DNA of 33,799 bases from a virus: positions 1 to 33,799 of the IMG/VR virus record IMGVR_UViG_3300031857_000730; one strand, given 5' to 3'. Of this stretch, positions 16,608 to 18,814 are shown piece after piece. The notes beneath the pieces were generated by a model. It was not told the origin of the DNA. It did no database searches and was given only the letters and a program-made list of their open reading frames with translations. The translations under genes were made by a program, and so were the position numbers. The stretch's first letter is position 1. Every line of letters begins with the position of its first letter.

Positions 16608-16686
16608 AAGATAAGATATGCGATGGGATCGAACCATCTATCGTTTATGCAAACGAATTAACCAAAGGTGGTTGCTGACTTATCTT
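16608..16686 (-). ncRNA. stem-loop E containing a tRNA 3' half
   Basis: AAGATAAG and CTTATCTT form an 8-bp stem enclosing CAGCAA and then a sequence with a good T-arm (GATGG-TTCGATC-CCATC) and a CGTTT...AAACG hairpin. There is no recognisable D-arm or 5' acceptor strand. GATATAC just upstream could pair with the following GCATATC except for one mismatch. It may be a permuted or degenerate tRNA. Confidence 0.5.
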
Positions 16687-16695
16687 AGTATATCT

Positions 16696-16746
16696 AGGTA
16701 ATTTTTTTCCTATTTTCAGTAAGAGGTTTTAATTGCTGAATTACCT
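16696..16746 (-). ncRNA. stem-loop RNA element between tRNA-like genes
   Basis: AGGTAATT...AATTACCT, an 8-bp stem, with CAGCAA at the start of the loop and an A-rich run before the 3' arm. Same layout as the elements at 17101-17150 and 18754-18814, with compensating base changes in the stem. Confidence 0.65.
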
Positions 16747-16748
16747 AA

Positions 16749-16866
16749 CGCCGAAGTCGGGAATTGAACCCGAACCTTTCCCTGACAATGGAATTTAGAG
16801 AAATTGCTGTCCGTATCTAAGACTAGATAACCGCTTTTTAACGTGCTACCGTTACACTACTTCGGC
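16749..16866 (-). tRNA. tRNA-like gene C with oversized anticodon region (118 nt)
   Basis: Acceptor GCCGAAG/CTTCGGC, D-arm GTGT-AACGGTA-GCAC, T-arm TCGGG-TTCAATT-CCCGA. Between the D-arm and variable loop lie ~66 nt rather than ~22, with TTAAAAAGC, the hairpin TATCTA-GTCT-TAGATA, then CAGCAA. Near the 3' side TTCC...GGGAA brackets TTGTCA, suggesting Asp(GTC) or Thr(TGT), but the stem is one base short of normal. CCA is not encoded. Confidence 0.6.
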
Positions 16867-16869
16867 AGG

Positions 16870-16953
16870 CGGAGAAGATAAGAGTCGAACTTACTAAGTT
16901 TGATGCTGTTTTATCTAAACAAGATAACCTCCGGTCCCCCAGAGAACTTCCCC
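16870..16953 (-). tRNA. tRNA-like gene B (84 nt)
   Basis: Acceptor GGGGAAG/CTTCTCC (one wobble), T-arm GTAAG-TTCGACT-CTTAT. TTATC-TTGTTTA-GATAA fits a normal anticodon arm and would read GTT (Asn), although T at position 37 is unusual. The D-arm CTCT-GGGGGACC-GGAG is atypical and 16 nt follow the anticodon stem, including CAGCA. It may be a tRNA with a long variable region or a shortened form of the A/C/D type. Confidence 0.5.
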
Positions 16954-16955
16954 AT

Positions 16956-16977
16956 AAACAGACAGTTTTCTGTCTGA
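16956..16977 (-). other. perfect spacer hairpin between tRNA-like genes A and B
   Basis: CAGACAG-AAAA-CTGTCTG followed by TTTATG. It could be a processing signal or a weak terminator between the two tRNA-like genes. Confidence 0.5.
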
Positions 16978-17094
16978 TACCAGAACTAGGAATCGAACCT
17001 AGACTACCTCCTCCCTATGGATTATTGGTAATTGCTGTCTGTATCTTTTACAAGATAACCGTTTTTAAGCGTGCTACCATTACACTATTCTGGT
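16978..17094 (-). tRNA. tRNA-like gene A with oversized anticodon region (117 nt)
   Basis: Acceptor ACCAGAA/TTCTGGT, D-arm GTGT-AATGGTA-GCAC, T-arm CTAGG-TTCGATT-CCTAG. The stretch between them is ~45 nt too long: CTT-AAAAACGG, hairpin TATCTT-GTAA-AAGATA, then CAGCAA. Joining CTT to CC-ATAGGGA-GGAGG would give a 5-bp anticodon stem and a 7-nt loop reading AGG (Pro), but this is one of several possibilities. CCA is not encoded. Confidence 0.6.
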
Positions 17095-17100
17095 GAAACT

Positions 17101-17150
17101 AGATGATTGTTTTTCTTTCCAAATAAGAAGTAAGAATTGCTGAATCATCT
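17101..17150 (-). ncRNA. 5'-terminal stem-loop of the tRNA transcript
   Basis: AGATGATT...AATCATCT, an 8-bp stem, with CAGCAA opening the loop and GAAAAAC preceding the 3' arm. It lies at the predicted transcription start of the tRNA-like cluster. The stem differs from its relatives by paired changes. Confidence 0.65.
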
Positions 17151-17158
17151 ATGAAATT

Positions 17159-17187
17159 ATTTTAGCAGAAGGGGGAGAGGTTGTCAA
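17159..17187 (-). promoter_or_regulatory. sigma-70-type promoter of the tRNA-like cluster
   Basis: TTGACA, 17-nt spacer, TAAAAT on the minus strand. The predicted start is near position 17152, at the edge of the first stem-loop. A perfect -35 makes this one of the two strongest promoters seen. Confidence 0.75.
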
Positions 17188-17195
17188 CCCCCTTC
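17170..17195 (-). terminator. hairpin after Ro-like gene, overlapping the tRNA promoter
   Basis: AAGGGGG-loop-CCCCCTT, seven pairs with a 12-nt loop containing the -35 TTGACA. There is no long T-run after it, so termination efficiency is uncertain. Confidence 0.5.
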
Positions 17196-17204
17196 ATTTG
17201 TTGG

Positions 17205-18671
17205 TCAGGCAAATGCCTCACCAATAGGTGCATAACGTTCGTTATACACAGCATCCCTCATCACATCCTCAGGAGAAATTACTTTCCCACTCAGAACAGA
17301 TTTCAGAATGGATGGAGAACAACCAGAAACCAGTGCGGTTCCAGTGTCATGTGCTTTGATAGGAACATTATCACCAATGGCATTAACATTCCAGAAAACT
17401 AGTTGAGGAAGTTCATAACCTGCCTTACGGTAGAGTTTTTGAATTTGCTCAAAGTTGGTGCGCTTGTTAGAACGACACGCTTGGTCAAACTGCATATCAG
17501 AGACGATAATCAGTTTCTCAGGCATATCTTCTGGAGCAACAGAGTTATTCTCTGCTGCACTTAGAATGGTCTTGAATACTGCCATCAGGTCAGTATTCAT
17601 ATTCCAAGCAGCACGGGAAAGATTGTTAATTCTGGCACCGATGGTAGCACCAGCAATCTTCTGCAGTTCTGGATTCTGGGAGAAAGTGATGAACTTATCT
17701 TTCCAGATAGGAGAAGTATTTCGCTCTGCAATATACATCGCAAGAGAGATAGAAACCGTCATAGGACGACCCATCATAGAACCAGATACGTCAGCAACAA
17801 CCAGACCATTGAAAGGTTTCCCTTCGGTATAATCAGGTAGTGCTTCCCACATCAGGTCAATGGTTTTATCCTGACGTTGCCCCTTGTAGAGATAGTTATC
17901 AACAATCTCATAAGGATAGATGGTTCCTGCATTGATTTTCTTCTCACCTTTCTCCACAGCACTGAGGTATTCAGCATAACGAGTAGCATCTTGCTTTGCA
18001 AATGCCTTACGATACATGAAACCAGCACGGGAAGGAAGGTGCTCATAGTCAATTGCAGACCACTCTTTAGCACACATCTTTTGCTCAACAATCCGAATTT
18101 GAGTACGGAGTGCTGCTAGTTGCTTACGATACTGACGCTCAGTAAGTTCAAGGTGTGCTGCAATCTTACGACCCAGACGCTTGCTATCTTTGCTAGAAGC
18201 ATTGATAGAAGGGAGCCACTTACCAAGAAGGGAAATTTTCAATCCTGCAGTAAGACTAAGAGTATCTGCAAGATACTGAGTCTTGATTACAGAAAGAACT
18301 TCATCCCAGACGGAAGTGTTCTCAAGAATCAGCAGGTCATCCCAACGACCATACTCAGGAATCAGACCAATCAGTTTTTTACCAATTTCACTGTTCTCTT
18401 GAATAAGGTCTTGGAACAGTTCGCGGAAGATTTTACGCTCTCCCTGTCCACCACGAATGTCACGGGAGTTGAAGAGAATACGAACTGCGGTTTCTGCATC
18501 CTCACGATATGCAAGGGCAAACAGACGCTTTGCCTTCGCAATATCATTACGGCAGGCATTGATTTGACCAAACAGGTCAACACAAGCGTTCAGCGTGGAT
18601 TTGTATGCCTTTGCTCCGTTCAGAGTTTCGGTCACATTCAGTTCAGATTCAAGTGCGGTTAGAAAAGTCAT
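17205..18671 (-). CDS. Ro60-like TROVE/DUF2828 + von Willebrand A protein, 488 aa
   Basis: The N-terminal ~285 residues are helical, with signatures of the TROVE/DUF2828 group: RDIRGGQGERKIFRELF and LIPEYGRWDDLL. The C-terminal ~200 residues form a von Willebrand A domain with a complete MIDAS set: DVSGSM (about 293), T in NMNTDLM and D in IIVSDMQFD. Ro60 proteins are ring-shaped RNA-binding proteins that hold Y RNAs and defective RNAs; bacterial Y RNAs mimic tRNA. The gene has its own strong promoter, a structured 150-nt leader and a GAGGAAAT ribosome site. It sits directly upstream of tRNA-like RNAs sharing the leader motif, which suggests RNA handling. Family recognition is by motif only. 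Confidence 0.85.
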   Translation of the reverse strand: MTFLTALESELNVTETLNGAKAYKSTLNACVDLFGQINACRNDIAKAKRLFALAYREDAETAVRILFNSRDIRGGQGERKIFRELFQDLIQENSEIGKKLIGLIPEYGRWDDLLILENTSVWDEVLSVIKTQYLADTLSLTAGLKISLLGKWLPSINASSKDSKRLGRKIAAHLELTERQYRKQLAALRTQIRIVEQKMCAKEWSAIDYEHLPSRAGFMYRKAFAKQDATRYAEYLSAVEKGEKKINAGTIYPYEIVDNYLYKGQRQDKTIDLMWEALPDYTEGKPFNGLVVADVSGSMMGRPMTVSISLAMYIAERNTSPIWKDKFITFSQNPELQKIAGATIGARINNLSRAAWNMNTDLMAVFKTILSAAENNSVAPEDMPEKLIIVSDMQFDQACRSNKRTNFEQIQKLYRKAGYELPQLVFWNVNAIGDNVPIKAHDTGTALVSGCSPSILKSVLSGKVISPEDVMRDAVYNERYAPIGEAFA

Positions 18672-18753
18672 AGTAATTTCCTCAAGTTGATTGGTTAATG
18701 TCGGTTAACCTAAAAGATGGAAACAGTTTTTAATGCTGTATCAACTTTTAGAC

Positions 18754-18814
18754 AAGATAAGTTTTTTGCGTGTCTAAATTAACGGTTTAGTGCAGTAAGT
18801 TGCTGCCTTATCTT
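18754..18814 (-). ncRNA. stem-loop at the 5' end of the Ro-like mRNA
   Basis: AAGATAAG...CTTATCTT, an 8-bp stem, with CAGCAA at the start of the loop and GCAAAAAA before the 3' arm. It begins about 7 nt after the predicted transcription start. Same layout as the element that opens the tRNA transcript. Confidence 0.65.

Follow-up and report, generated by a model that had tools for sequence, protein, structure and literature searches.

Stem-loops beside a Ro60-like gene in a T4-like cyanophage fragment resemble an overlooked relative of the Y RNA particle

We describe here a set of RNA stem-loops in a viral stretch of 33,799 nt (IMG/VR record IMGVR_UViG_3300031857_000730, positions 1 to 33,799; hereafter the window), a fragment of a T4-like cyanophage whose nearest annotated relatives are Synechococcus phage B23 and other cyanophages. 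We consider it probable that these stem-loops belong to a small structured RNA family that partners a phage Ro60-like protein, as Y RNAs partner Ro60, with a part in tRNA mimicry and probably in autoregulation. Stem-loops of this kind stand next to a Ro60-like gene in numerous phages and bacteria, which gives them the look of a Y RNA relative that has been overlooked. All relevant features are confined to the minus strand and run from 18.8 to 16.5 kb of the window. The leader, with two tandem stem-loops (18754-18814 and 18684-18747), is followed by the 488-aa Ro60-like gene (17205-18671) and by one more stem-loop (17100-17151). Next stand two insert-bearing tRNA genes, separated by a degenerate tRNA-like gene that likewise has an insert, and after them a pair of stem-loops (16695-16747 and 16608-16686) precedes the last insert-bearing tRNA gene.

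The unit consists of a stem of 8-9 bp, the 5' strand of which is followed, after 0-1 nt, by CAGCAA, usually with an A-rich stretch ahead of the 3' strand. The initial annotation had reported four such stem-loops, with an AGATAA plus CAGCAA half first and an A-rich half last. All four are present on the minus strand where it placed them and the order of the halves holds, but the A-rich stretch is clear in only three of them (16608-16686 has CGCATAT there) and a fifth copy, at 18684-18747, had been overlooked. In the four stem-loops originally reported, 34-63 nt are enclosed from stem strand to stem strand. When the window was scanned for stems of at least 8 Watson-Crick pairs followed by 0-2 nt and CAGCA within a limited span, five minus-strand matches and one unrelated plus-strand match were found, compared with a mean of 0.36 and a maximum of 3 in 300 dinucleotide shuffles, none of which reached 5. 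A single degenerate pattern allowing up to 3 mismatches proved a poor probe: it matched the window twice, and one match was out of register with the other.

Individually, the first leader element (18754-18814) has the stem AAGATAAG/CTTATCTT followed by G and CAGCAA, and contains an inner hairpin (CTAAA..TTTAG) and, ahead of its closing strand, an A-rich stretch; the second (18684-18747) has the stem AAGTTGAT/ATCAACTT followed by A and CAGCA, and its end adjoins GAGG (18680-18683), which is probably the ribosome-binding site and lies 12 nt ahead of the ATG. Beyond the gene, the stem-loop at 17100-17151 carries TAGATGATT/AATCATCTA with CAGCAATT, a sequence class also present in other viral contigs, and that at 16695-16747 carries TAGGTAATT/AATTACCTA, again with CAGCAATT. 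The stem-loop at 16608-16686 has AAGATAAG/CTTATCTT with CAGCAA and encloses, as judged by eye, three hairpins, the last of which is a tRNA-like T arm (GATGG TTCGATC CCATC). Rfam labels none of the window's stem-loops.

That the two strands form an RNA helix, as the initial annotation had argued from paired substitutions, is borne out by 22 orthologous leaders (21 distinct), which were picked by their place before the gene and not by pairing. In these leaders 94.6% of the stem cells pair, two-sided changes occur in 11 cells against a shuffled mean of 2.7 (none of 500 shuffles reaches 11), and sliding the partner strand cuts pairing to 14-49%. Across contigs the outer AGAT/ATCT is mostly kept, and the inner four pairs vary (GATT, GGTT, AGTT, AATT, TGAG, TAAG, TCAG and others) with matching partners; since these examples were chosen for their pairing and include some false rows, they illustrate variety and are not proof. 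Further copies, whose absence elsewhere the initial annotation had named as one part of the outcome that would speak against it, are numerous in other viruses and in bacteria, by pattern and by stem scans alike.

The position of the unit relative to the Ro60-like gene is strict. An exact pattern for one version of the unit matches 48 IMG/VR stretches, and a pattern for the tRNA insert matches 13. Any 8-bp stem with CAGCA was counted in the surroundings of the gene's IMG/VR relatives, of which 34 out of 36 were used (contigs L028 and L038, matched without the start of the gene, were dropped). The gene's strand has 52 such units upstream and 80 downstream, the opposite strand a single one, compared with 0-13 matches in all for each of five control motifs. 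Of the 34 viral loci, 27 have a unit no more than 200 nt upstream of the gene and 20 have two copies there, and the last of the leader copies adjoins the ribosome-binding site. In Campylobacter phage CP81, the gene is directly preceded by two tandem units, which a small annotated open reading frame overlaps. The same holds outside viruses: around 80 bacterial and archaeal relatives (by title mostly Clostridia, with one gammaproteobacterial locus and one Lokiarchaeota metagenome-assembled genome), 168 units lie upstream on the gene's strand versus 8 on the opposite strand, with nine control motifs giving 2-13. The unit is present in 66 of these 80 loci, often as arrays, and in 36 of the 66 the nearest copy ends 10-58 nt before the gene.

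The protein encoded by this gene is matched in Pfam only by DUF7788 and DUF2828, and it falls in the PHROGs family phrog_850, an 'RNA-binding protein' family; relatives in mycobacteriophage records are annotated 'Ro-like RNA binding protein'. A predicted model (mean predicted local distance difference test score, pLDDT, 79) has a helical N part and a von Willebrand factor A (vWA) part. The first three Foldseek matches are Rsr/Ro60, with Deinococcus Rsr and human Ro60 leading (best E value 2.5e-6, template modelling (TM) scores 0.34-0.39), and the first nine VIA-align matches are Ro60/TROVE structures, among them the Ro60 of Thermus phage phiLo, ahead of all vWA-only entries (Z 13.1 to 9.6, root-mean-square deviation (rmsd) 4.4-9.4). 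Ro60/TROVE structures (Rsr 2nvo, Ro60 1yvr, phiLo Ro60 9l5y) are thus the best fold matches by two methods, and as modelled the phage protein has the Ro60 fold of helical repeats plus vWA. The low TM and high rmsd values indicate either that the domains are arranged differently or that the model is imprecise. Unlike Ro60/TROVE proteins, it carries DUF2828/DUF7788 with no match to the Pfam TROVE domain, and a sequence search against solved Ro60 structures returned only a chance row. Within the vWA part, D294, S296 and S298 are invariant in 18 sequences and form a DxSxS, which we take to be the metal site. Translated searching found a relative in 676 of 50,697 phage records. 'DUF2828', in a literature search of titles without bioRxiv, brought up plant papers only.

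What the stem encloses varies: in other phages and in bacteria it can be plain hairpins or a T arm, and it can also be a tRNA-like cloverleaf, whose parts stand either in normal order or, in unrelated phages and bacteria, in a permuted one (T arm, acceptor strand, 3-16 nt, other acceptor strand, D arm). Within a single bacterial array the several copies enclose differing modules, many of them tRNA-like. In 14 elements, from other phages, bacteria and one archaeal metagenome-assembled genome and not from the window, the 3' half precedes the 5' half with pairing acceptor strands and both D and T arms, giving a T arm, a closed acceptor hairpin and a D arm. A strict scan for permuted tRNAs found 7 in 1.59 Mb (ten phage genomes) versus 1 in 3.18 Mb of resampled sequence, and none in four genomes without the Ro60-like gene. 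None was found in the window or in the cyanophage loci, and among contigs L001-L099 plus the window only L094 matches. In Felixounavirus Alf5, which infects E. coli K-12, a permuted element is located at about 25.1-25.2 kb of the record.

These permuted elements provide what we regard as the strongest pointer to the nature of the family, since their order is apparently that of the tRNA-like module of a Y RNA. The Rfam model of YrlA (RF02553), the Rsr/Ro60 partner, matches four of them with 47.8 (contig L107), 39.8, 35.4 and 34.4 bits (E values 8.8e-4 to 1.2e-7), and the T arm, closed hairpin and D arm of the model align to the same parts of the elements. Like our unit, YrlA has a stem made from two RNA ends, and relatives of the window's elements share its permuted order of T arm, closed acceptor hairpin and D arm. 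The unit is also encoded beside a Ro60-type gene, an operon context described for YrlA in a portion of PMC7790460. In contrast to YrlA, the stem carries the motif (A)CAGCAA, several RNAs may stand in an array, some modules retain an anticodon arm and the module is also grafted into tRNA genes.

The grafted copies are found in the three insert-bearing tRNA genes of the window, all on the minus strand. The first (16978-17094, Rfam tRNA 45 bits) contains a 46-nt insert in its anticodon arm (17022-17067), which includes TATCTT-gtaa-AAGATA CAGA CAGCAA, the hairpin being followed by CAGACAGCAA within the tRNA. In this form a short loop closes the stem, with the A-rich stretch before it and CAGCAA after it, that is, the unit opened at its other end. 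Judged by sequence, the grafted module has the same architecture as the stem-loops in circularly permuted form, and the relation that the initial annotation had read from the opposite order of the two halves stands. The second gene (16749-16866, 46.2 bits) has a 47-nt insert in this tRNA order at 16794-16840, and the third (16490-16602, 54.6 bits) has a 40-nt one in its anticodon loop (16530-16569), the boundaries of which are ambiguous owing to CTAAAA at both ends. With the inserts excised, the arms of the first two read CTTCC AT[AGG]GA GGAGG and TTTCC AT[TGT]CA GGGAA. Between them lies the degenerate tRNA-like gene (16871-16953), recognized by eye, with acceptor strands GGGGAAG/CTTCTCC, a hairpin at about 16911-16927 followed by CAGCA, and a matching gene in a related cyanophage. 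ARAGORN reports no tRNA in the window; the Rfam tRNA model does match these genes, long inserts included. A CCA-adding enzyme (tRNA nucleotidyltransferase) is encoded nearby at 20072-20803 on the minus strand and is a possible partner in tRNA maturation.

We suggest that the terminal stem, flanked by CAGCAA on one strand and in most cases by an A-rich stretch on the second, is the shared module of the family and most likely the site to which the Ro60-like protein would bind. The enclosed part would then be a variable outer module, ranging from plain hairpins and a T arm to, in relatives, a whole tRNA-like cloverleaf, which may mimic tRNA as that of YrlA does. In tRNA genes the module is grafted into the anticodon arm, its stem closed by a loop and the acceptor left open. 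The two leader copies, with the second placed against the ribosome-binding site, would probably let the Ro60-like protein repress its own translation.

Several results weigh against a Y-RNA-like family of this kind. The best YrlA score, 47.8 bits, is below the Rfam cut-off of 69, and since this curated score is not reached we do not file the elements as YrlA; the window's own score is not significant (15.7 bits, E 3.1), the T arm at 16608-16686 being the only part of the YrlA-type module that it carries; and the stem motif of the unit differs from that of YrlA. No unit was found close by in scans near the Ro60-like genes of LP-125, ValKK3, contig L009 and six distant viral relatives, and 14 of the 80 bacterial and archaeal loci lack one close to the gene. 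Finally, excision of the insert rebuilds the anticodon arm better than shuffled flanks do (p < 0.05 in 28 of 40 distinct arms), and 5 of the 14 permuted tRNAs encode N-CCA just past the acceptor strand, two findings that are easier explained by real tRNA maturation.

The last two findings are at the heart of an alternative that we consider rather unlikely, namely that the unit is an excision element: an intron of 38-49 nt would be cut from the tRNA genes and the anticodon arm rejoined, and in the permuted order the enclosed piece would be circularized, so that in permuted tRNA genes opening the acceptor end of the circle would restore the tRNA. Restored arms (for example ACG|insert|GC ATTGTAA GCCGT) have anticodons that make sense, among them those for Thr, Pro, Arg, Asn and Val; the tRNA-Arg of B23, rejoined without its 38-nt insert, is one 74-nt piece with 81% identity, end to end, to an intact T4-type tRNA-Arg; a permuted tRNA-Phe is conserved in 28 Enterococcus phages; and RNA ligase genes (PF09414, a family that also covers related ligases) occur in 7 of 9 viral records. 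An intact His gene in PJN02 and an intact Arg(TCG) gene in B23 were looked for and not found. However, the 40 arms are not independent. They were drawn from 60 rows after repeated arms and inserts without CAGCA/CTGCA had been dropped, and one retained row (contig L089, TCTGTCTTGTAAACAGA) is a false parse spanning two neighbouring tRNA genes; the first insert scan also held false rows (window +28279, L088 and L011 at 923), and the one insert match in T4_ev151 is spurious, being not tRNA-like at sight. Two of the window's three tRNAs pass through relatives with the same arm (L010, p 0.007; L011, p 0.023), but the tRNA at 16490-16602 does not (p = 0.116), and among permuted anticodon arms only 4 of 14 reach p < 0.05. 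Enclosed pieces are mostly plain hairpins, and intact tRNAs with the same anticodon coexist with the altered ones, Tyr(GTA) and Gly(TCC) in Cronobacter phage S13 and Phe(GAA) in iF6, so the inserted or permuted copies there are not needed for decoding. We rejected RtcB as a fixed partner, as 18 of 19 records lack it; the single case is Listeria phage LP-125, in which an RtcB-type ligase gene (L105:6346-7557) follows the Ro60-like gene about 1.3 kb downstream. For the tRNA-embedded copies, the exact restoration of anticodon arms still lends some weight to the intron idea of the initial annotation; the link to the Ro60-like gene, the YrlA-like permuted modules and the intact tRNA copies speak for a structural RNA of the Y RNA type.

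Permuted tRNA genes and bulge-helix-bulge introns occur in archaea and algae. Relatives of the window's elements recall the former in having the 3' half before the 5' half, with a spacer that includes CCA in some, and the inserts recall the latter in their positions in the anticodon arm; here, in contrast, an 8-9 bp CAGCAA stem replaces the described motif, the hosts are bacterial viruses and bacteria, and the elements are known from sequence. Group I introns likewise sit in the anticodon arm of tRNA genes, but self-splicing by such an intron was rejected, since 38-49 nt is far too short and Rfam gives no group I match at gathering threshold in the window. Inserts of 22-49 nt in cyanobacterial tRNAs are called 'group I' in a part of PMC5733544. 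The same title search, bioRxiv aside, found no description of permuted tRNA genes or such tRNA inserts in phages. A bolder proposal, which we think doubtful, is that the Ro60-like protein and the CAGCAA stem together define tiny tRNA introns in an unseen phage and bacterial RNA splicing system, the permuted order releasing circular RNAs that include true permuted tRNA genes; if an intron reading held, this would to our knowledge be the first such splicing in phages.

It is improbable that the unit serves solely for control in cis, as a binding site or processing signal spread over tRNA and leader regions, and yields no separate RNA product: the paired leader units in 20 of 34 viral loci, the last adjoining the ribosome-binding site, would suit such a role, but bacterial arrays carry several differing and often tRNA-like modules that a leader signal does not need. 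Least likely are remnants of a small mobile element landing in tRNA genes and spacers, for although similar stems occur in many places and short repeats flank some inserts (as in the tRNA gene at 16490-16602), stem sequences diverge while pairing persists, and orientation and position beside the Ro60-like gene are strict.

Some further observations were made along the way. An insert-bearing tRNA family (starting GGGAACG or GCCGAAG; contigs L005, L008, L024, L090, L089 and L021) has very different anticodon loops from one related cyanophage to the next, which gives the impression of a rapidly evolving loop. Three further units lie among the tRNA genes of phage S13 (L132:2277, 2940 and 4279), two of which enclose more than 100 nt that do not look tRNA-like at sight. 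Near bacterial arrays there are ornate large RNAs (L289:3683-4257 and L303:4307-4743), with 310 bits for ROOL and 65 bits for GOLLD, the latter below its cut-off of 150. The window also holds 13 copies of the motif TGCACTTTCnnGGGCCCA with no more than 3 mismatches, every one on the plus strand, against a mean of 0.11 in 100 shuffles; they lie at 249-266, 1222-1239, 2825-2842, 3455-3472, 4166-4183, 5349-5366, 7475-7492, 10518-10535, 11422-11439, 12658-12675, 15151-15168, 16456-16473 and 25171-25188. Some at least fall between minus-strand genes, and the motif is possibly a promoter, a terminator or a protein site.

Finally, TROVE proteins with a tRNA-like partner have been noted in a few jumbo phages, in a section of PMC7824862. 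If the stem-loops described here do partner the Ro60-like protein, Y-RNA-like particles would be far commoner than believed, given the share of phage records that encode a relative of the protein, and would include an RNA family that has so far gone unlabelled. Natural tRNA mimics, both linear and permuted, would be available for comparison, some of them in phages that infect E. coli K-12 or B. subtilis. YrlA has been suggested as a decoy for tRNA-cutting defences, in one passage of PMC7790460, and the reason why phages carry tRNA-like RNAs would become testable, for example as decoys of this kind.

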